A stretch of DNA of 64,000 nucleotides, taken from the NCBI GenBank assembly GCA_002700385.1, contig PADC01000008.1, positions 164,485-228,484 on the forward strand. Direction: 5' to 3'. The DNA comes from Cycloclasticus sp. (lineage in GTDB: Bacteria; Pseudomonadota; Gammaproteobacteria; Methylococcales; Cycloclasticaceae). A program made the translations under genes and the position numbers. Shown piece after piece: positions 18,927-30,310 of this stretch. The notes beneath the pieces were generated by a model. The model saw only the letters and a program-made list of their open reading frames with translations, was not told the origin of the DNA and searched no databases. Within the stretch, counting starts at the first letter, position 1, and every line of letters begins with the position of its first letter.

Positions 18927-18946
18927 GTTTTTAAAAATATCGAAGT

Positions 18947-18996
18947 GCACCAATATTCTCATCGTTCTTTTGATGGGGTATTGGTGCCTTTTATCT
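18947..18996 (+). terminator. Rho-independent terminator of sucA-sucB-lpd
   Basis: GCACCAATA (18947-18955) pairs with TATTGGTGC (18979-18987), with an inner CATC/GATG helix in the loop, followed by CTTTTATCTT. It sits 20 bases after the lpd stop. Confidence 0.7.
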
Positions 18997-19279
18997 TAAG
19001 AATGCTGTTACCTTTTTTTTAATATCTCATTAACTTTATCCCCCCTCTACAGACCTTCACCATAGACATAAGATCAACTAAAACCTTCCTCACCCCAATT
19101 AACGTCATCTTCTTCTCCTTCTTCTGGATAAGGACTTTCGATAAACAACCACCCTCATCTTTTACTCACTATTGCTTTACAAAAAGATTCAATTAGATTA
19201 TTTTTACTTAAAGCTAATGTGTTTATTTAAGTTGTTTTTTTAACTTATTGATTTAAAAGACTTAAAAAAAGAGGTAAAA
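18997..19279. other. AT-rich intergenic region before the ThDP operon
   Basis: No coding frame is evident. The stretch includes a pyrimidine-rich tract (about 19081-19130) and the pair TTGCTT / TAGATT (about 19168-19195) that could act as -35 and -10. A short inverted repeat TAAGTT / AACTTA around a T-run lies near 19228-19247. GAGG five bases before the ATG at 19280 is a good ribosome-binding site. Promoter reading is tentative. Confidence 0.35.
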
Positions 19280-21109
19280 ATGAGCGCCACCATCCAAAAC
19301 ATTATTCCAAAAAATGAGATTGCGGCTTGCGACCTTCTGATAGATTATTTAGAAAAAATTGGGGTTGAGTTTATATTTGGCATTCCAGGCGGCGCAATAG
19401 AACCTCTCTATAATGCTTTAGCCAGAAGTGAAAAACGTGGCGGTATAAAAGCCATTACAGCCAGACATGAAACCGGCGCTGTTTTTATGGCAGATGCCTA
19501 CGCAAGAAACACAGGCAAATTAGGTGTCTGTTGCTCTACAACCGGACCTGGAGCAACAAACATGATCACCGGTATCGCTTCGTCTTATGAAAACAATACC
19601 CCTCTTTTAATTATCACGCCTCAAACTTCACAAGATAAAGCTGGCAAAAAAGCCATGCAAGAATCTGGAGATACAGGCATCAATATTTCGGGTATGTTCC
19701 AATTTTTCACCAAATACACGAGTTACGTCACTCATGTAGAACAAGTTGAGCATAAACTCGTATCGGCGATTATGTCGGCCTTTAGTAGCCCAGGTGGCCC
19801 AACACATTTGAGCATTCCAGCAGACATACTTAAGAGCCAAGTTCCCCTCAAACAAAGCTCGATCAATATTAAAAATTTACTGAGACGCCCTGTTTTCAAG
19901 GATGAAAGCGCCATACAAACGCTGATAAAAGAAATAAATGATTCTAAAAAAACAATTTTTGTTATTGGTGCTGGAACAAAAGAATGTAGCGGCTTAATAG
20001 CACAATGTATCAATGCATTAAACATTGAGTTTGTCGCAACACCTGATGGTAAGAGCTTCGTTAATCCCTATCACCCTTTATACAGAGGTGTTATCGGCTT
20101 TGCCGGGCATAAAAGCGCCAATAAAGCCCTTCAGAATAATGCCGTAGACACCATTGTTGTTATTGGCTCCTCGCTGGGTGAATTTACCAGCAACGCATGG
20201 GATCAATTAACCCTACTCAATAACAAATTGATCCATATCGATAATAATCAAGACAACTTTACCCGATCTTCAATGGCTAAATTACAAGTAGCTGGTGATA
20301 TACCCAGTGTATTAGAAGCCATTTTAGAAAACCACAGAGCCCAAAACAAAGCCGCAGATAAAAGCGCGTCAACGTCCATTATCGATAAAAGCCAGTTATT
20401 CACGCATATGCAAATGGATAATCAAAAATCTGTGTATTTTGAGTTTGATGAGCCAGATAAAATTAAAGACCAATCCAGCCCTTTAAAACCGCAATTTTTA
20501 ATGCATCAACTGACTCAAATTTTCCCATCGAATGCCCGCTATTTAGCAGATACAGGCAATAATTTAGCTTGGTCCATTCATTACCTCAACCCCTACGACA
20601 GACGATTTAACAACCGAAGAGCAACTCAAAGAAATGAAAAAGACAGGCGATCGAATAGTGCTGGACTTCTCCAAATTTGCGCTGAATTTTGTTCAATGGG
20701 CTGGTCCGTCGGAAGTGCCATAGGGACAGCCTTGGCACACCCAAAAGATCCCGTTGTGTGCATAGTAGGTGATGGCAGTTTTCTAATGTCTGGCAATGAA
20801 ATTACCGTTGCACTTCAAGAAAAGCTAAATGTTATTTTTCTGATCATGAATGATCAACATCTCGGCATGGTTAAACATGGACAAAAACTAAATAACTCGG
20901 CTGATATTGCCAATAAACTACCTAATATCAGTTATGCTTTAATGGCCTCAGCAATGGGAGTCATGAGTTATACCATTGAAAGCGCAGATGATTTAGCTAA
21001 GTTGGACATCAATAAAATTTGTACGCGAAATGGACCGACTCTGTTAGACATCAGAATCGATGCGAACGAGGTCCCTCCCATCGCCACACGACTAAAAGGC
21101 ATGAAATGA
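19280..21109 (+). CDS. ThDP-dependent acetolactate-synthase-like enzyme, substrate unknown
   Basis: The 609-residue protein has the three-domain POX/ALS fold: N-terminal PYR domain with the cofactor-activating Glu at residue 64 (ARHETGAVFMADAYAR), central domain (~200-345), and C-terminal PP domain with GDGSFLMSGNEI starting at residue 497 and the metal-binding N about 28 residues on. Enzymes of this fold decarboxylate or ligate 2-oxo acids. No ilvN-like regulatory subunit is nearby, so it is unlikely to be the branched-chain enzyme. Residues ~440-460 are an Arg-rich insertion (RRFNNRRATQRNEKDRRS). The stop overlaps the next start (ATGA), making a three-gene unit with two citrate-synthase-like genes. 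The reaction is unknown. Confidence 0.85.
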   Translation: MSATIQNIIPKNEIAACDLLIDYLEKIGVEFIFGIPGGAIEPLYNALARSEKRGGIKAITARHETGAVFMADAYARNTGKLGVCCSTTGPGATNMITGIASSYENNTPLLIITPQTSQDKAGKKAMQESGDTGINISGMFQFFTKYTSYVTHVEQVEHKLVSAIMSAFSSPGGPTHLSIPADILKSQVPLKQSSINIKNLLRRPVFKDESAIQTLIKEINDSKKTIFVIGAGTKECSGLIAQCINALNIEFVATPDGKSFVNPYHPLYRGVIGFAGHKSANKALQNNAVDTIVVIGSSLGEFTSNAWDQLTLLNNKLIHIDNNQDNFTRSSMAKLQVAGDIPSVLEAILENHRAQNKAADKSASTSIIDKSQLFTHMQMDNQKSVYFEFDEPDKIKDQSSPLKPQFLMHQLTQIFPSNARYLADTGNNLAWSIHYLNPYDRRFNNRRATQRNEKDRRSNSAGLLQICAEFCSMGWSVGSAIGTALAHPKDPVVCIVGDGSFLMSGNEITVALQEKLNVIFLIMNDQHLGMVKHGQKLNNSADIANKLPNISYALMASAMGVMSYTIESADDLAKLDINKICTRNGPTLLDIRIDANEVPPIATRLKGMK

Positions 21110-21939
21110 GCGTAGAAAAGGAAACAATCACCACCAAGATCTGGTTTGAGGAAGAAGAGCCAGACAACCCTTTTGCCGCTAAAACCAGCTATTGTTCTGG
21201 TTATGACGTCTACGGTGAACTCTTGGGAAAAATATCCTGGTCTGAATATATCTATTTGCTCTTTAAATTAGAAAAACCTCAACCTTGGCAGTCTAAATTA
21301 TTAGAAGCTATCGCCATCGCTATTGCCAATCCAGGCCCCCGTGATTTAAGTGTACGTGGTGCAATGAATGGTGGTGTGGGCGGTTCGACTGCCGCCTCTT
21401 GTTTAATGGCAGCCCTCGCCCCAGGCGCCGGTAAAAATGGGGGTGCTAGAGAAGTTTATCAAGTAATGCGTTTATGGCAACAATGTGAATTTGATTTACC
21501 ACTGTGGCAACAAAACCTATCCAACTATCAAGATGAAGAAGATGTTGAAGTTTGGCCAGCCAGTGAACACCCCCCAGGTTTTGACCCATATGGAGCGAGT
21601 TGTGCCACACCCATTTTACAAACTTTAAATCACTTAACGACTATTTGCTCAGATGGAGCTCTCGCTTACTTATCAAACAACCGAAAGGAATTTGAGCAAG
21701 CTGCTGATTGCCCGTTAGGTATGACAGGTGTCATAGGGGCAGCATTTACCGATTTAAATTTTACTGATGAACAAGCAGAAATGCTCTATCTATTGCTTCG
21801 CCTTCCCGGTGCAGCTGTACATTCACTAGAACAAAAAAAACTGGGCTGGCGAAAATACCCATTTTTTGGAAATAGTTTACAAGTTACAAATGACCCTGGC
21901 TCTTTTAAACAGAAATCCAAATTGCAAGAAACATCATGA
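21106..21939 (+). CDS. Citrate-synthase-fold protein A (citryl-CoA lyase-like)
   Basis: The 277-residue protein resembles short citrate synthase / citryl-CoA lyase proteins. Landmarks are VYGELLGKISWSEYIYLLFK, ANPGPRDLSVRGAMNGGVGG, and a C-terminal LRLPGAAVHSLEQKKLGWRK. By eye, positions that are His in classical citrate synthase are Asn111 (GAGKNGGAR) and Pro161 (PPGFDPYG), and the catalytic Asp position is Thr207 (GMTGVIGAA). These alignments are manual and may shift by a residue. The start at 21106 is chosen because it overlaps the upstream stop as ATGA; an 87-base upstream extension of the frame lies wholly inside the ThDP gene. It ends in an ATGA overlap with the second paralogue, suggesting a stoichiometric complex. 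Confidence 0.75.
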   Translation: MSVEKETITTKIWFEEEEPDNPFAAKTSYCSGYDVYGELLGKISWSEYIYLLFKLEKPQPWQSKLLEAIAIAIANPGPRDLSVRGAMNGGVGGSTAASCLMAALAPGAGKNGGAREVYQVMRLWQQCEFDLPLWQQNLSNYQDEEDVEVWPASEHPPGFDPYGASCATPILQTLNHLTTICSDGALAYLSNNRKEFEQAADCPLGMTGVIGAAFTDLNFTDEQAEMLYLLLRLPGAAVHSLEQKKLGWRKYPFFGNSLQVTNDPGSFKQKSKLQETS

Positions 21940-22736
21940 GTAGAAATCAAATACTAGAACTAGCCGAGGATAATTGGCAAACAGAAATGGGAGCAGCATT
22001 TCCAGGCGAACGCGTAGTCTTTAGAGGAAAAGATTTATTTGAAGAACTAGGGGACTTAACTTGGTTTCAATACCTTATGTTTGGAATTACTGGAAAAAAA
22101 TTCTCTAACAATGAAATTGCATTAATCGAAGCCATCTGGTCATTAACCGTAAGTTATCCGGATCCAAGGTTATGGAACAACAGAGTTGCTGCTTTAGCAG
22201 GCACCGCAAATTCAACGGGCATACTAGGCACATCCGCTGCGATTGCATGCTCTGAAGCGAGTATTTATGGCAATCAAATAAATATACAGTCCATTGATTT
22301 TATTAAGCGAGCAACGATTCATGAACTATCTGAAAAGCCATTACTTGACTTAATTAAAAATGAATTGAAACAAAAACGCATCATCCCAGGTTATGGGCGC
22401 CCTATCGTTCAACATGATGAACGAAGACAGCCACTAATAAACAAAGCTACGCAGCTAAATTTAGCTAGCGGCAATCACTTTAAAACAGCCATCAAAATAG
22501 ACGAACTATTACAAACAACAAAATACCGTATGCAGATTAACGCCAGTGGGTTGGCTGCGGCGTTAATGGCCGACATTGGTTTAAGTAATAGAGAACATTA
22601 CTATTGTTCACTATTAGCCTTTTCTGCGGGAATCATCCCTTGCCATATTGATGCATCAGAACATAAAGAAGGCACCTTTTTTCCTTTACAATGTAACAGG
22701 ATAAATTACACAGGGAACGAAAAAAGACACTGGTAA
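21936..22736 (+). CDS. Citrate-synthase-fold protein B (citryl-CoA lyase-like)
   Basis: The 266-residue protein is a diverged paralogue of its upstream neighbour. Landmarks are VVFRGKDLFEELGDLTWFQY, SYPDPRLWNNRVAALAGTAN, and PGYGRPIVQHDERRQPL. The last corresponds to the PGFGHRVY loop of citrate synthase, with Arg155 where the catalytic His would be; Asn202 (MQINASG) stands where the catalytic Asp is expected. The segment PLQCNRINYTG resembles the RPRxxYTG end of the family. It overlaps the preceding gene by four bases. A heteromeric enzyme or a regulatory pseudo-enzyme are both possible. Confidence 0.7.
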   Translation: MSRNQILELAEDNWQTEMGAAFPGERVVFRGKDLFEELGDLTWFQYLMFGITGKKFSNNEIALIEAIWSLTVSYPDPRLWNNRVAALAGTANSTGILGTSAAIACSEASIYGNQINIQSIDFIKRATIHELSEKPLLDLIKNELKQKRIIPGYGRPIVQHDERRQPLINKATQLNLASGNHFKTAIKIDELLQTTKYRMQINASGLAAALMADIGLSNREHYYCSLLAFSAGIIPCHIDASEHKEGTFFPLQCNRINYTGNEKRHW

Positions 22737-22787
22737 TTTTGAAAATCACAACTAAGCTTAACTGTACTAATAAAAAGGTATAGCTTA

Positions 22788-24860
22788 ATGATGAAAAAAT
22801 CTATAACTTGGTTGCTAATTACTCTCATAAACTTAATTTTCAATAACGCACAAGCATTCGATGAAGAAGCTTTAATGGATGCATATGGTGGCGAAGAATT
22901 TTTATACATTGCCACAGGCAGAAAACAAACTGTTTCTCAAGCGCCGGCCGTTGCCAGTATAATTTCTGCTAAAACTATTCGTCAGATAGGCGCTCGTGAT
23001 ATCGATGAAGTATTAGAAACCATACCAGGCTTACACGTTTCCTACGCCGCTGGGGGATACAACCCTATTTATCAAATACGCGGTATTTCATCTAGCACCA
23101 ACCCTCAGGTTCTCATGCTAATAAATGGCATCCCCATTACAAATATTTTTGCTGGTAACAGGTCACAAGCATGGGCTGGTATGCCGGTTGAGAATATTTC
23201 AAGAATCGAAGTCATCCGTGGCCCTGGCTCTGCCTTGTATGGCGCCGATGCCTTTGCTGGCACCATTAACATCATCACTAAAAACGCCAGTGAAATTAAT
23301 GGGCTCGAGGTTGGTGTGTCGGCCGGCAGTTTTGATGAATATCGCGGCTGGTTACAGTATGGCAGCACCGTGGCGGGTTGGGAGACGGCTTTTTCTGCAC
23401 AGGTTTTAGATACCCACGGCCAGCATGAAAAAGTGGATCGCGACTTCCAATCAGGCCTTGACTCCCTATTAGGCACCTCGGCCTCTTTAGCGCCCGGTAG
23501 CATCAGCTTGGGTCGTCAATCACTGGACACACGACTTGATCTCTCTAAAGAAAAATGGCAAATCCGTTTGGGTTACCAAGGGAGACGACACGGCAAAACT
23601 GGTGCCGGGTTATTTCAAGCCTTAGACCCTGTTGGAGAAGCGAATGCTGATCGTTACAATGCGGATATTACATACCATAATCAAAGTTTTACTGAGCACT
23701 GGGACTTTAAAGCACAATACAGCTTTTTCAACTCAATAACCGAATCCGATTTAGTACTGCTGCCACCGGGCACAAACATAACCGGGCTTCCAGCTCATAC
23801 GTTTCCTAATGGTGTAATCGCTAAACCCGATGTGCATGAACGCCATAACCGTATTGACCTGTCAATGTTCTACACCGGTTTACAGCATCATGATATTCGA
23901 ATAGGCGCTGGCTTCCACCATCAAGACCAATACAAAATAGAAGAAAAGAAAAACTATTTAGCAGTTGGGCCTGCTTTAATTCCTCTGGGAGCTGTTATTG
24001 ATGTTACTGACACCGCGCCGTTTAACCAGGAAGAAACCCGGAAGATTTATTATGCTTTTGCCCAAGATGCATGGGATTTTGCGCCTGATTGGACACTAAC
24101 CGCTGGCTTACGTTACGACCATTATTCAGATTTCGGAGACACCCTTAACCCTCGTCTCGCCCTCGTCTGGCAAACCAGTTATCGATTAACCAGCAAACTT
24201 TTATATGGACGCTCTTTCCGCGCCCCCTCCTTTGCTGAACAGTTTAACATTAACAACCCCGTTGCCTTGGGCAACCCTGATTTGGACCCAGAAATTATTG
24301 ATACATACGAAATGGCTTTTAGTTATACCGCCACTGACAATTTGAAGCTCAGTATGAATCTTTTCTACTACCAAATGAAAGATATTATCCGATTCAATCC
24401 GACAACAGCAAATAACACCGGCAAACAAACCGGTCATGGCCTTGAGGCGGAAATCAACTGGAAAGCAACCGACAAATGGTCAGTCTACGCTAATTACGCT
24501 TATCAATCGTCCGAAGACAAGGATACCGACAGTGAGGTTGCTGATGTTCCTCAACAGCAAATCTACTTGCGAACTCATTATGAGCTGACGTCCATTTGGT
24601 CCATCAATTCGCAACTTAATCATGTTCGCGACAGAAAACGCGCCTCAACAGACCTACGTTCAGCGATTGACGATTATACCGTTGTTGATTTAACGCTTCG
24701 CGCAAAAGAATTTGCGCCAGGATTTGAATTTGCCCTATCTGCCAGGAACTTATTTGATGAATCTGTTAAAGAACCGTCCTTAGCGCCGGGCGCCATACCC
24801 AACGATTTACCTTTAGCAGGCAGGGGAGTATTTGTGGAATTAAGGAAATCTTTCCACTAG
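22788..24860 (+). CDS. TonB-dependent outer-membrane receptor
   Basis: The 690-residue protein has a signal peptide (first ~23 residues, ending NNAQA) and a plug domain (residues ~45-170: APAVASIISAKTIRQIGARD, VLETIPGLHV, RIEVIRGPGSALYGADAFAG, INIITK). A beta barrel follows, with FRAPSFAEQFN and NPDLDPEIIDTYEMAFSY, closing with an aromatic C-terminal strand (GRGVFVELRKSFH). Such receptors take up siderophores, vitamin B12, haem or other large ligands. It starts 51 bases after the citrate-synthase-like pair and lies 22 bases before a binding-protein gene. The ligand cannot be read from sequence. Confidence 0.92.
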   Translation: MMKKSITWLLITLINLIFNNAQAFDEEALMDAYGGEEFLYIATGRKQTVSQAPAVASIISAKTIRQIGARDIDEVLETIPGLHVSYAAGGYNPIYQIRGISSSTNPQVLMLINGIPITNIFAGNRSQAWAGMPVENISRIEVIRGPGSALYGADAFAGTINIITKNASEINGLEVGVSAGSFDEYRGWLQYGSTVAGWETAFSAQVLDTHGQHEKVDRDFQSGLDSLLGTSASLAPGSISLGRQSLDTRLDLSKEKWQIRLGYQGRRHGKTGAGLFQALDPVGEANADRYNADITYHNQSFTEHWDFKAQYSFFNSITESDLVLLPPGTNITGLPAHTFPNGVIAKPDVHERHNRIDLSMFYTGLQHHDIRIGAGFHHQDQYKIEEKKNYLAVGPALIPLGAVIDVTDTAPFNQEETRKIYYAFAQDAWDFAPDWTLTAGLRYDHYSDFGDTLNPRLALVWQTSYRLTSKLLYGRSFRAPSFAEQFNINNPVALGNPDLDPEIIDTYEMAFSYTATDNLKLSMNLFYYQMKDIIRFNPTTANNTGKQTGHGLEAEINWKATDKWSVYANYAYQSSEDKDTDSEVADVPQQQIYLRTHYELTSIWSINSQLNHVRDRKRASTDLRSAIDDYTVVDLTLRAKEFAPGFEFALSARNLFDESVKEPSLAPGAIPNDLPLAGRGVFVELRKSFH

Positions 24861-24882
24861 CCCAGCCGTATAATACTTAAGT

Positions 24883-25887
24883 ATGCCAAACCAATTGATA
24901 ATCATGGATGATCATAATCAAAATGCGTTCTTTAAAAAAATACATAGTGCTGTTTTACTTTCAATTCTATTTTGTGCAAGCCTTTTTTTGGGGCATACAG
25001 CACAAGCTAGCACCACCTTCAACGTGACTGTTTTTTACCCTGATGTTAGAAAACCATACAGCATGATTTTTGAAACGATTACCAATGGCATTAAAGAGCA
25101 CCCTGAAATAAACCTTAGCGTTCAACGAATCAGCAAAACGACGACAGAGGCCGAGATTCTAAAGTCCCTCCAACAAAAAAACCCAAATGCAGTCATTATG
25201 CTGGGTGGAGGTTTTAAATCCCTACAAGAAAAACTAAATGCCTCCTTTAAAACACTTTATGGCGCTGCTTTTTTTTCCAGCCAGGATATAGAAAAAGGGA
25301 TCATGGGGGTCTCAATGGATCCAGCTCCTTCCCTGCTTTTTAAAGAGTTAAAAAAGTTGCACCCTAACATCAAGAGAGTTCACGTAGTTTTTGAACCTAA
25401 TGCTAATGGTTGGTTAATCGAAAAAGCGCAACAAAGCACCAAAGAACAAGGAATTACACTAATACCGCACCAGGCAACCAATGTAAAACAAGCCGCGTTA
25501 ATTTATAAAGAAATCGCTCAAAATAATCAGCACGATGAAAGTGCCTTATGGCTTCTCCATCATGACCCGACATTAGACAGCAAAAGTCTGTTACCCAGAA
25601 TCCTGGTTGATGCATGGAAATATAAGCAGGTGGTCATCTCAAGTAATCCGGCGCATGTACGCCGAGGCGCACTGTTTTCATTACTCCCTGACAATCAGCA
25701 GATTGGAAAAGATCTTGCGGATATGACCGTCAATATCTTAAATGGGCAAACTGCCAACATGGAGCCGATGAAGTCTTCGTTAGTTGTCGCTAACCTTAGA
25801 ACAGCCAAACATTTATCTAACTTCCTGATGTTAAAACAAAAAAAGAATTTTGCGCTAACCTATCCGAAGGGCGGGTCATATGATTAA
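24883..25887 (+). CDS. Periplasmic substrate-binding protein (ABC_sub_bind type), no permease
   Basis: The 334-residue protein has a signal peptide (hydrophobic LLSILFCASLFLGHTAQA, residues ~24-42) and a two-lobed periplasmic binding fold. Typical segments are FYPDVRKPYSMIFETITNGI, MLGGGFKSLQE, VSMDPAPSLLFKELKKLHPN and VVFEPNANGWLIEKAQQSTK. No ABC permease or ATPase gene is adjacent. It overlaps the sensor kinase gene by eight bases, so it more likely presents a ligand to that kinase than feeds a transporter. An alternative ATG at 24904 is possible. Confidence 0.8.
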   Translation: MPNQLIIMDDHNQNAFFKKIHSAVLLSILFCASLFLGHTAQASTTFNVTVFYPDVRKPYSMIFETITNGIKEHPEINLSVQRISKTTTEAEILKSLQQKNPNAVIMLGGGFKSLQEKLNASFKTLYGAAFFSSQDIEKGIMGVSMDPAPSLLFKELKKLHPNIKRVHVVFEPNANGWLIEKAQQSTKEQGITLIPHQATNVKQAALIYKEIAQNNQHDESALWLLHHDPTLDSKSLLPRILVDAWKYKQVVISSNPAHVRRGALFSLLPDNQQIGKDLADMTVNILNGQTANMEPMKSSLVVANLRTAKHLSNFLMLKQKKNFALTYPKGGSYD

Positions 25888-28800
25888 CAAACTGCACGTA
25901 TTTTTAACAAAATACAGTTTTAAAAACCTGTTAGCTACGACCTATGTCATTGGTATTTCGTTATTAATAGCGATTGCCACCTTGATCACCTCAAATTTAT
26001 CAACAAGGAGCGTGCATGAGAGCCTGAATAAAACAGGCGCTCAACTGATCGAATCATTTTCTGATAATAGCCGTATTGCACTCCTTTACCAAAGTAGAGA
26101 CGAAGCTAAATTGGTCACAGAGTCGATCTTATCCTTTCCGGATGTAACCGCTGCTGGCATTTATAACCCCCAAATGCAGCCCATCTATCAAACCACCGAT
26201 CAACTGGGAAAAAATACGATCAATTTGCCTGATAGCACCACTGTATTGGATTATGAAAATGAATTGGAGTGGTCATATACAGCGCCGGTTTTTAGTACTC
26301 AAGATGATGAAGCCTTCCTTTATTCTGTTGAAAAGTTTAAACCAGAACTGCTTGGTTATGTCCGTCTAACAGTCAGCAAAGGGGTCCTGAGCACACTGGA
26401 AAGAAATTTTTACAAATACAATTTAATTGTCATTGGCATCCTGGCCTTACTGTTACTCTGGGCTCTGTTAATCGTCACAAAACGTATCACCAAACCGATA
26501 GATAATCTTGCAGAGCACATGCTAGAAGCCACAAAAGGCAAATTAATCAAGACAAAAAGCATTGGAACGACGCGAGATATCATTAAAATGGAACATGCCT
26601 TTAGTGACATGATGCAAATTCTCGACAATCGTGAAAAAGAATTGATCACTACGCGTGATCTTGCAGTTGAAGCCGCTAAGGTTAAAAGTGAATTTGCTGC
26701 CAATGTCAGTCATGAGCTCAGAACACCACTAAATGGCATCTCGGGCATGTTAGAACTGCTTTCTGAGATGGACCTTGATGCGCAACAACAGGAATATTTA
26801 AGAGTCGCCTCTACCAGTGCTGCATCCTTATTAGAACTCATTGACGATGTTTTAGATTTTTCTAAATATGATAGCAATGACATTTCATTGCACCATGAAT
26901 CATTCAACTTAAGAAACACCTTGGAAAACACCATCACCCTTCTAAGTACGCAAGCCCACAAAAAAAATCTTTCTATCGCATACTTCCTGGGTAACGACAT
27001 CCCATGCCACATCATTGCCGATGAATTACGACTTCAGCAGATACTACAAAACTTATTGGGCAATGCTTTAAAATTCACACCGACTGGCGAAGTGATTATT
27101 AACACATCAATGGTTAAATTAGATGGACAATCAGTCACCTTACTATTTGAAGTAAAAGACACTGGGGTTGGCATCCCTGAAGAGGCACAAAGCAAAATTT
27201 TTAACGCCTTTTCGCAAGCGGACAATTCAACCACAAGAGAATTTGGCGGAACCGGTTTAGGGCTCGCTATCGCACAACAATTGGTCACCATGTTCGATGG
27301 AGAAATAGGTGTTAATAGCAAAGTTGGTGAAGGCAGTACGTTTTGGTTTACTGCAAATTTTACCATCGACAGTCAAATTGAACATCCTCAACCTTCTCCC
27401 GATTCTAAACACCTGAACATTTTATATGTCGGTGATGATGACTTATCTACCCGATTTATAAAACAGCAACTCCAAGCATTATCTTACTTTGCTGATTATG
27501 TTACCAACGCCCCGAGCGCCATTAGAAAATTACGCAACCACAAAACACTCAATAGGCCCTATGATTTTATTTTAGTCGACACACTCCAGTCGATGATAGA
27601 TCAGCGCAACTTAATCCATATGGTCAATAATGATGAAACAATCAACAAAACAAAAGTTATAGCTTTGGTTGATAATGGCTCCAACAGCCTTAATTTAAAT
27701 TCTGAAGGATTAAACATTTTTCAGTACATAAATAAGCCGGTTATGCTGAACGACTTGACCCTCAAATTAAACCTGCCTTCAGATACAGCCATACAACAAT
27801 CAACTGAGCAAGATGAACAGCTTCCTCACTATGAAGGTAAAAATATTCTAGTCGTTGAGGACAACAAAGCTAACCAAATCGTTGCCAAAGCGATGCTGGA
27901 AAAATTTAAATGCACTATAACCCTTGCCAATAATGGCGTCGAAGCGTTAAAAACCTTTTCATCGCAATCATTCGATCTCATTTTTATGGACTGTCAAATG
28001 CCTGAAATGGATGGATATGAGGCCACATTTCAAATTCGAGAGTTAGAAAATAAAACTGTTCACACACCCATTATTGCATTAACAGCAAATAAACAGCTTT
28101 CAGACCGCGAACAATGTATAGCTGCAGGTATGGATGACTTTATGTCAAAGCCATTAACTCTGAATACATTAAAAAATGCGCTGGAAAAGTGGCTCTCCAC
28201 CACACCCAAATCGGATCAGGACCCGGACTCAATAACCACCGTGCTCGATGAAATCAGCTATGCACAATTAAAAGAAAACCTGGGAAGCAGATTTAATGAT
28301 GTATTGGATGCTTTTGTTCAACAAATGCCTGATGATTTGTCTCAACTCACAGCTGACGTCGCTCAAGCCAACCTTGTTTCAATCAACAAAACCCTCCATA
28401 CAATAAGAAGTAGCGCGTCCAATGTTGGCGCGCTACGACTTTATCAAGCATGCGAGACTATGGAAAAAACGTTTGATAATAAGGAAGCTAATGCCCTGTC
28501 TATTCAGCTTAAAATAATTTTATTTGAGGCTGAATTAGCAATTAAAGAAGTCAGCTCTAGAAAAAACCAACCTTCTTCAACGTTACCCGCAGCTATACAA
28601 ACAGAGTATCAATCAAAAATATTATTAATTAATAGCAGTAAAACCGTCAGGCTCGACATAAAATCGACGTTGGAATCTGCAGGACATCATGTAGATGAAG
28701 TGATAAACAGTCACCAAGGGGTGATGTACTGTGAACGTAATAAACCCGATATGGTTATCCTGGAACAGATGTTTTCTGGTGACAATAAAGAATTCGAAGA

Positions 28801-30310
28801 TACCTGCATCGCGTTAAAAAAGCATGATATTCCTTTTATCGTGACCTCTAATACCGAGAGCGAAACATCAATTAATAATGCCTTTACTTCCGGTGCAGTC
28901 GACTATTTTTCAACTCCATTAAACTTTCCACTTTTTACACAGCGAATTAATAAACTGATCGCAGCCAAAGTAGCGGAAAATAAAATCTTTGACTTAGCAC
29001 ATAAAGACCATTTGACCGGTCTAATGAACCGTTCTTTATTTACCAAAAAGGTCTCTGATTATTTAACACAACACGAACGAGACGGAAAATTATTCGCCCT
29101 CATTTTCCTTGATTTAGATCGATTTAAACTGGTCAATGACTCATACGGCCATGAAGCCGGCGATTTATTACTTAAAATTGTTGCCGAGCGCCTTTCAAGA
29201 AGCGTTAGAGAAGTTGACATCATTTCCCGTTTTGGTGGTGATGAATTCGTGATTGGGCTGAGCGATATAAAATCACACAAAATTATAGAAAAACTAGCGC
29301 AAAAAATTCAAAATAATTTATCCAGGCCCTTTGTCTTCCTTGGTAAAGAAATGCACGTTAATGCCAGTCTAGGTATTAGTGTATTCCCACAAAGTGGTAC
29401 CACCGTGAGTGATCTTGTAAAAAATGCCGATATCGCGATGTATTTATCTAAACAGTCAAAAACACCCTATGTGTTCTTTGATGATTCAATGGCTGAAAAT
29501 ATTAACAAACGCTTGACCATAGAAAATGAATTACGCAATGTTATTTTACGTAATGAATTAAACGTTTTTTATCAGCCGCAGTTCAGCCTATCAACCGGCA
29601 AATTAATCGGTATGGAAGCCTTAGTCAGATGGAAGCACCCTGAAAAAGGCTTAATCCCGCCAAATGATTTCATTGGTCTTGCTGAAGAAACCGGTCAAAT
29701 TCATATGATTGGAGAGTGGGTCTTACAAACTGCCTGTTTAACTTTAAAAAATTGGATTGATCGTGGTGCCAGCCCTATTAGAGTTGCAGTCAATCTGTCT
29801 AATCTCCAACTTGAAGATGAGGAGATCATCAATAAAATCTCCGCTACTTTAAACTCTACCCAACTACCGCACGAGCTGCTTGAACTAGAAATAACCGAGA
29901 GCGCGGTGATGAACAATGAACAGCTCGTCATCGATAAACTAGAAGTATTAAAAGACTTAGGCATCAAGCTGGCTATTGATGATTTTGGCACCGGTTATTC
30001 ATCGCTGAGCTATTTAAAGCGTTTACCGATCAATTTACTAAAAATTGACCGTTCTTTTGTCAATAATAGCCTTAGCAATAAAGCCGATGAAGATATTATA
30101 AAAACCATCATTGTGCTGGCTCACAGTATGGGCGTTGAAGTCATAGCCGAAGGGGTAGAAACTAAAGAACAAAGTACCTTATTAGAGGAACTTCATTGCG
30201 ATTATGTTCAAGGTTACTATTTTGGCAAGCCGATGCCCGCTGAAGAATTTGAGAAATTATTATTTCCGAAAGCAAATAATAACGTGTACCCAATCTCTTT
30301 GTTACAATAA
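25880..30310 (+). CDS. Hybrid sensor histidine kinase with REC, Hpt, GGDEF and EAL domains
   Basis: This 1476-residue membrane protein has TM1 (~14-36), a periplasmic sensor (~37-175), TM2 (~177-199), HAMP (~200-255) and HisKA with phospho-His 278 (SHELRTPLNG). HATPase is at ~385-495 (GTGLGLAIAQQ). A degenerate receiver lies at ~509-630, then a receiver with Asp704 (FMDCQMPEMDG). Hpt has His840 (LHTIRSSASNVGA), and a third receiver-like domain is at ~910-1030. GGDEF is intact at 1119-1123 with an RxxD I-site (REVD), and EAL begins at Glu1246. The EAL catalytic set appears complete (EALVRW, VNLSNLQL, LEITES, DDFGTGYSS, LLKIDRSFV, AEGVET). It probably turns a periplasmic signal from the overlapping binding protein into phosphotransfer and c-di-GMP change. 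Confidence 0.9.
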   Translation: MINKLHVFLTKYSFKNLLATTYVIGISLLIAIATLITSNLSTRSVHESLNKTGAQLIESFSDNSRIALLYQSRDEAKLVTESILSFPDVTAAGIYNPQMQPIYQTTDQLGKNTINLPDSTTVLDYENELEWSYTAPVFSTQDDEAFLYSVEKFKPELLGYVRLTVSKGVLSTLERNFYKYNLIVIGILALLLLWALLIVTKRITKPIDNLAEHMLEATKGKLIKTKSIGTTRDIIKMEHAFSDMMQILDNREKELITTRDLAVEAAKVKSEFAANVSHELRTPLNGISGMLELLSEMDLDAQQQEYLRVASTSAASLLELIDDVLDFSKYDSNDISLHHESFNLRNTLENTITLLSTQAHKKNLSIAYFLGNDIPCHIIADELRLQQILQNLLGNALKFTPTGEVIINTSMVKLDGQSVTLLFEVKDTGVGIPEEAQSKIFNAFSQADNSTTREFGGTGLGLAIAQQLVTMFDGEIGVNSKVGEGSTFWFTANFTIDSQIEHPQPSPDSKHLNILYVGDDDLSTRFIKQQLQALSYFADYVTNAPSAIRKLRNHKTLNRPYDFILVDTLQSMIDQRNLIHMVNNDETINKTKVIALVDNGSNSLNLNSEGLNIFQYINKPVMLNDLTLKLNLPSDTAIQQSTEQDEQLPHYEGKNILVVEDNKANQIVAKAMLEKFKCTITLANNGVEALKTFSSQSFDLIFMDCQMPEMDGYEATFQIRELENKTVHTPIIALTANKQLSDREQCIAAGMDDFMSKPLTLNTLKNALEKWLSTTPKSDQDPDSITTVLDEISYAQLKENLGSRFNDVLDAFVQQMPDDLSQLTADVAQANLVSINKTLHTIRSSASNVGALRLYQACETMEKTFDNKEANALSIQLKIILFEAELAIKEVSSRKNQPSSTLPAAIQTEYQSKILLINSSKTVRLDIKSTLESAGHHVDEVINSHQGVMYCERNKPDMVILEQMFSGDNKEFEDTCIALKKHDIPFIVTSNTESETSINNAFTSGAVDYFSTPLNFPLFTQRINKLIAAKVAENKIFDLAHKDHLTGLMNRSLFTKKVSDYLTQHERDGKLFALIFLDLDRFKLVNDSYGHEAGDLLLKIVAERLSRSVREVDIISRFGGDEFVIGLSDIKSHKIIEKLAQKIQNNLSRPFVFLGKEMHVNASLGISVFPQSGTTVSDLVKNADIAMYLSKQSKTPYVFFDDSMAENINKRLTIENELRNVILRNELNVFYQPQFSLSTGKLIGMEALVRWKHPEKGLIPPNDFIGLAEETGQIHMIGEWVLQTACLTLKNWIDRGASPIRVAVNLSNLQLEDEEIINKISATLNSTQLPHELLELEITESAVMNNEQLVIDKLEVLKDLGIKLAIDDFGTGYSSLSYLKRLPINLLKIDRSFVNNSLSNKADEDIIKTIIVLAHSMGVEVIAEGVETKEQSTLLEELHCDYVQGYYFGKPMPAEEFEKLLFPKANNNVYPISLLQ

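Follow-up and report, generated by a model that had tools for sequence, protein, structure and literature searches.

A thiamine diphosphate-dependent enzyme and two citrate-synthase-family paralogues head a presumed six-gene operon with a TonB-dependent receptor and a sensor kinase: a candidate make–import–sense module

The window analysed here is a 64,000-nucleotide stretch of a Cycloclasticus sp. genome (assembly GCA_002700385.1, contig PADC01000008.1, positions 164,485 to 228,484). It contains a run of six genes (19280-30310) which, on balance, probably constitutes a single module for making, importing and sensing a small molecule. The first three genes (the trio) encode a thiamine diphosphate (ThDP)-dependent enzyme, TD, and two citrate-synthase-family proteins, CA and CB. 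They are followed by genes for a TonB-dependent outer-membrane receptor, a periplasmic binding protein of the PF04392 family and a hybrid sensor kinase. Given that an enzyme half and a receptor-sensor half share one gene run, the cell probably makes, takes up and senses the molecule itself. This reading is based on gene content, co-occurrence, the kinship of TD, the loss of catalytic residues and the existence of variant modules.

TD is predicted, from its sequence and structural model, to be a carboligase of the acetohydroxyacid synthase (AHAS) superfamily, of the kind that synthesizes alpha-hydroxy-beta-keto acids (HKA) from two 2-oxo acids. In a PDB search, the best match was BbmA (E = 9.7e-84), with CsmA at 3e-74 and the next family at 3e-57; the PDB entries of BbmA and CsmA (8x3x, 8x3z) are titled 'ThDP-dependent HKA synthase'. 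The TD model (mean pLDDT 84.5) aligns with them at Z-scores of 41.0 (8x3x) and 40.8, versus at most 37.4 for the next families. The TD homologues (77/77) all retain the catalytic (activation) Glu64 and the GDG...N motif, and all carry a glycine (Gly534) at the site of the AHAS tryptophan, as do BbmA and CsmA. The BbmA equivalent of this glycine is the residue altered in the BbmA-G484F entry.

The identification of TD as an acetolactate synthase was rejected, because its scores fall below the AHAS cut-offs (TIGR00118, 295 bits versus 538; NF006187, 297 versus 509), it lacks both the RFDDR arginines and the active-site tryptophan, which in AHAS serve the second 2-oxo acid, and no AHAS small subunit gene lies beside it, the neighbours being lpd, CA, CB and the genes for the receptor, the PF04392 protein and the kinase. 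The 2.5-Mb genome from which the window derives has a genuine acetolactate synthase besides TD (866 bits), which reads RFDDR and MVRQWQ, so that TD is not the housekeeping enzyme.

TD homologues also occur in other settings. A second, free-standing homologue (58% identity to the nearest query) is located directly 5' of sucA-sucB-lpd (L240:10072-11937 and L246:9520-11388), whereas the Cycloclasticus TD lies directly 3' of these genes; location on either side possibly reflects a shared tie to 2-oxoglutarate. Further homologues, apart from CA and CB, have as neighbours a gene for a NosP-like protein together with a kinase gene or a GGDEF/EAL gene (L238:11581-13691, L239:11297-13440 and L247:7362-8516). 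The NosP model matches at 5.8e-111, below its cut-off, in L238 and at 7e-17 in L247, and L239 was assigned by its likeness to L238. Six related loci have, 5' of TD, genes of a dehydrogenase complex and one for a ScyB-like dehydrogenase (E = 1e-83, far below cut-off); these were set aside, because a transaminase gene on the opposite strand intervenes.

In NCBIfam, the only models to match CA and CB are those of citryl-CoA lyase subfamilies, at sub-threshold scores (best E = 2e-11 for CA and 4e-16 for CB); both proteins also match the solved citryl-CoA lyase 6hxp (E = 1e-7 for CB). The model of CA (mean pLDDT 86) aligns with 6hxp over 247 residues (Z = 19.3, root mean square deviation 7.2) and, over 239 residues, with another citryl-CoA lyase, 6hxj (Z = 18.8, deviation 3.8). 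CA is accordingly modelled with the citrate-synthase fold, and CB, whose profile matches CA with a probability of 97.5, is placed in the same family by sequence. The catalytic His, His and Asp are present in 6/38, 1/38 and 0/38 CA proteins and in 0/36 CB proteins at each position; 13 lyase controls, which were chosen by the two His motifs with Asp not a criterion, have all three. This loss renders the classical citrate-synthase or citryl-CoA reaction unlikely for either protein. Other residues are invariant or nearly so, namely W150, H155, R232, H239, E242 and Q243 in CA, and W80, N82, R155, D161-R163 and N202 in CB. In a FastTree phylogeny rooted on one of the lyases, CA (0.82) and CB (1.0) are each monophyletic and form a joint clade (0.96) apart from the lyases, a topology consistent with a single old duplication.

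The role of the pair remains either that of a remodelled site or that of a scaffold. Were the two proteins to serve TD as a pseudoenzyme scaffold or as a pair of regulatory subunits, this would account for the loss of the catalytic residues, the strict co-occurrence and the close linkage with TD, and the remainder of the module reading could stand. By contrast, the conserved polar residues fit a remodelled ligand site, and elsewhere a ketoacyl synthase III (KAS III) or a methyltransferase occupies the same place (see below), so we hold a non-catalytic pair to be possible but doubtful. The window's genome contains another short citrate-synthase family gene (260 aa; L223:7898-8680), which is outside the trio family and surrounded by acyl-CoA and thiolase-like genes.

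An earlier note on this DNA had recognized a 2-oxo-acid-type ThDP enzyme in the trio, with no acetolactate synthase small subunit, next to two different short citrate-synthase/citryl-CoA-lyase paralogues. All three points hold, although the note missed the loss of the catalytic residues in the two partners.

Across genomes, the trio and the genes downstream of it travel together. CA is present in 20/101 genomes of close relatives and, with a more distant branch (~30% identity) included, in 41/369 genomes sampled evenly across the class, a count that omits two matches taken for canonical lyases, the sequences of which were reused as controls. The module thus occurs in about one ninth of the class sample, and it is found in other classes as well. 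CB is present in 41/41 of the CA genomes (Fisher, 3e-49 over the 369 genomes), and the receptor clade (E ≤ 1e-100) in 38/41 trio genomes versus 16/328 others (Fisher, 2e-35). Among 84,980 species genomes scanned, 80 loci were found, in Cycloclasticus, Marinobacter, Hahella, Collimonas, Dechloromonas, Gallionella and many metagenome-assembled genomes (MAGs). Among the long loci (>20 kb, n = 47), TD and CB adjoin CA in 47/47, a TonB receptor is found in 46/47, a kinase/GGDEF/EAL gene in 45/47 and a PF04392 protein in 37/47. Clustering of open reading frames (ORFs) from ~70 loci revealed no further plausible gene family as frequent, and the frequent short ORF clusters look like out-of-frame reads of the same genes. 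In one family of another class (L204-L206 and L211), the order is TonB-CA-CB-TD-binding protein-kinase, with the six genes close-packed on one strand and most of their ends overlapping. In one genome (G020), CB is broken into two pieces that lie 517 kb from each other on the same chromosome (C1:3775504-3775665 and C1:3257639-3258289), and the receptor clade is missing as well; this represents a decaying copy of the module.

The earlier note had treated the trio as a unit, had named independent occurrence of the genes in most genomes as what would count against this, and had taken two ATGA overlaps to suggest fixed stoichiometry. The joint occurrence of CA and CB goes against independence, and the trio is real and conserved, although the note had overlooked that a TonB receptor, a binding protein and a c-di-GMP kinase are conserved in this gene run too. 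Both the TD/CA and the CA/CB junctions indeed read ATGA. Such coupling is, however, not general, with TD and CA abutting or overlapping in 29/64 loci and CA and CB in 40/65, so that overlap alone is no proof of fixed stoichiometry. The note had been unable to match the genes to a known operon; likewise, we found neither the trio nor the six-gene unit described in the open-access full-text literature searched. As far as we can tell, the combination, the citrate-synthase-family pair devoid of catalytic residues and the interchangeable head are new, and the parts are of known kinds.

The biosynthetic head of the module varies. Two genomes retain TD and the TonB-PF04392-kinase genes in the absence of the CA-CB pair. 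Between TD and the receptor gene, one of these (L233) carries a KAS III and a 131-aa protein without a family match, and the other (L225) a single S-adenosylmethionine-dependent methyltransferase. In carbazole biosynthesis, a KAS III-like enzyme joins a ThDP-made HKA to a hydroxyacyl-acyl carrier protein (ACP), and NzsH/CqsB3 joins indole-3-pyruvate with pyruvate (PMC7466098). Together with this precedent, the variants suggest that CA-CB may act at the same step. In another family (L208-L210), genes close to the trio encode a Ser/Thr kinase-AAA-GAF-HisKA_3 sensor, a LuxR-type regulator and FkbH-like and MaoC-SDR proteins, and one genome adds an ACP-like ORF. Within one family, FkbH-like and MaoC-SDR fusion genes lie just past the kinase and regulator of the trio (L213:1101-4093 and L215:5168-8443), and a 77-aa ACP-like ORF is present in the same stretch of L215. 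Such neighbours hint at acyl-carrier chemistry.

These heads bear on a catabolic explanation, under which the TonB receptor would import an external compound, the sensor would detect it and the trio would degrade it. The presence of the receptor clade in genomes without CA is in line with this scheme, as is the position of the Cycloclasticus trio behind sucAB-lpd. We nevertheless consider it unlikely, since there is no conserved inner-membrane importer and there are no additional catabolic enzymes, the varying head (citrate-synthase-family pair, KAS III or methyltransferase) is biosynthetic in look, and FkbH-like, ACP-like and MaoC-SDR genes accompany the trio in one family.

The tail varies in its periplasmic and inner-membrane parts. 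The loci of Hahella, Oleiphilaceae and Marinobacter lack the PF04392 gene and have the TonB gene in convergent orientation; nearby they encode a YfiR/HmsC-like PF13689 protein, a histidine kinase with a CHASE8 domain and a REC-GGDEF-EAL protein, the Pfam search within this group covering the Hahella locus. This exchange indicates that the periplasmic and inner-membrane components vary but remain related to c-di-GMP. Members of the receptor clade also occur without CA (L226-L232 and L234-L237), often near kinase, PF04392 or YfiR-like genes; these genomes are possibly receivers without producers.

Uptake through a TonB receptor suits a chelator or a scarce ligand, and the product could be a siderophore or chalkophore, the tail serving uptake and feedback with signalling secondary. 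The alternatives overlap in this respect, given that a chelator would be a version of the module and that the scaffold question concerns a single step. The sub-threshold likeness of the receptor to heme, B12 and siderophore receptors and the presence, by record title, of methanotroph-family MAGs among the hosts speak for a chelator. Against it, no exporter, inner-membrane importer or metal regulator is conserved around the trio in ~70 loci; the best Fur-box-like match 5' of TD, 12/19, is ordinary for the window and not convincing (consensus scan of one genome); and in one family the trio adjoins a Ser/Thr kinase-GAF-HisKA_3 sensor with no TonB gene next to it. We regard a chelator as possible, though less likely than not. 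The constancy of the sensor, the same lack of a conserved exporter, importer and metal regulator, and the sensor variant without an adjacent receptor suit a signal.

Several observations weigh against the make–import–sense module. No exporter or inner-membrane transporter is conserved across the ~70 loci, TD is found without CA and CB in some genomes, and the L208-L210 family has no TonB gene adjoining the trio. A contig named Planctomycetota encodes TD-CA-CB (L135:8238-12105) with no TonB receptor within 20 kb, a result of either transfer or misbinning. The receptor clade in 16/328 genomes lacking CA implies that the ligand may be foreign in some hosts. Replacement of head genes is known from just two cases, and the CA-CB complex is one that we infer. 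Finally, among the observations in favour, the pairwise distances of the TonB receptors follow those of CB as well as the trio members follow one another (r = 0.81, compared to 0.66-0.74), but this correlation is confounded by shared descent, which explains part of it, and is supportive only.

The make–import–sense module could operate as follows, with the substrates, the catalysis by CA-CB, secretion, the identity of the receptor ligand with the trio product and the signalling output all being proposed rather than observed. The head would make a small carboligated molecule: CA and CB, as sister pseudo-citrate synthases, would form a heteromeric partner that accepts the unstable TD product and either couples or rearranges it with an acyl-thioester, comparable to the KAS III-like enzyme of carbazole biosynthesis. 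The product would exit the cell and re-enter, alone or as a metal complex, via the cognate TonB receptor; the periplasmic protein would then catch it, and the membrane kinase would read it and adjust c-di-GMP. A changeable biosynthetic head with a conserved receptor-sensor tail fits a molecule that is self-made, recovered and sensed. More tentatively, and with considerable reservation, the module may represent a new and widespread class of bacterial communication, in which TD and CA-CB make a self-signal, the TonB receptor admits it, a periplasmic relay passes it to the c-di-GMP kinase, and the interchangeable heads yield lineage-specific signals. An autoinducer synthase would be linked to a cognate sensor; here, linkage and co-occurrence are seen for the genes, and a shared ligand is proposed. 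If the proposal is true, these bacteria produce a new small molecule whose presence they sense across the outer membrane, and citrate-synthase folds have taken on a new role. Library models would label the enzymes merely as relatives of acetolactate synthase and citryl-CoA lyase. The module is open to experiment in the cultured host genera Marinobacter, Hahella, Collimonas and Dechloromonas.

In the window, the gene unit extends past 22736, to ~30310 (Table 1). Judged by their spacing, the genes from TD to the kinase presumably form one transcript, with the trio as the first half of a six-gene operon and the receptor and sensor as the second. The gap between CB and the TonB gene measures 51 bases and that between the TonB and PF04392 genes 22 bases; the ATG of the kinase gene overlaps the 3' end of the PF04392 gene. 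For CA, the ATG at 21106 was preferred over the 306-aa alternative listed among the ORFs, which starts from a TTG inside TD. Upstream, across the 353-base gap, lie sucA-sucB-lpd. In a promoter scan of the region before TD, the count was not above that of shuffled sequence, and the terminator-like excess in the scan was within noise. A plasmid search returned a single weak match.

Table 1. Coordinates of the six genes and of the region preceding them in the window
Feature	Position	Strand	Description	Remarks
TD	19280..21109	+	609 aa, predicted ThDP-dependent carboligase-type enzyme	Pfam TPP N/M/C all present
CA	21106..21939	+	277 aa from ATG at 21106	Predicted citrate-synthase-fold protein without catalytic residues
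CB	21936..22736	+	266 aa, second citrate-synthase-family paralogue	GYGRP...DER signature, catalytic residues lost
TonB-dependent outer-membrane receptor	22788..24860	+		Pfam Plug and b-barrel
Periplasmic binding protein PF04392	24883..25887	+		Pfam E = 3e-13
Hybrid sensor kinase	25880..30310	+	1476 aa	Pfam HisKA, HATPase, REC x3, Hpt, GGDEF, EAL
Intergenic region 5' of TD	18927..19279	+	Presumed operon promoter region	353-base gap after lpd

Each part of the module resembles a known system. With BbmA and CsmA, TD shares the motifs GSSLG-E/D (in the window protein) and GFAGH and the glycine at the AHAS tryptophan site, but the identity is just ~30-33%, and TD is partnered with the citrate-synthase-family pair and a receptor. 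CA resembles the citryl-CoA lyase 6hxp in fold and length, and CB is a distant sequence match to it; unlike the lyase, the pair consists of two diverged paralogues that have lost the catalytic His, His, Asp set. The closest parallel to the head is CqsB3-CqsB1-CqsB2 of carbazole biosynthesis, where a ThDP enzyme makes an HKA on which an acyl-thioester enzyme then acts, as TD and KAS III could do in L233; NzsH/CqsB3 is likened to TD by its reported reaction, not by sequence, and the excerpted text mentions no TonB receptor or kinase (PMC7466098). The module, for its part, shows no CqsB2-like cyclase, and in most modules the citrate-synthase-family pair replaces KAS III. The tail recalls systems of the NspS-MbaA type, which consist of a periplasmic protein and a GGDEF-EAL receptor: in both cases a periplasmic binding protein adjoins a membrane c-di-GMP enzyme; the module differs in that a TonB gene precedes this pair, synthesis genes are part of the same run and the sensor carries additional kinase, REC and Hpt domains.

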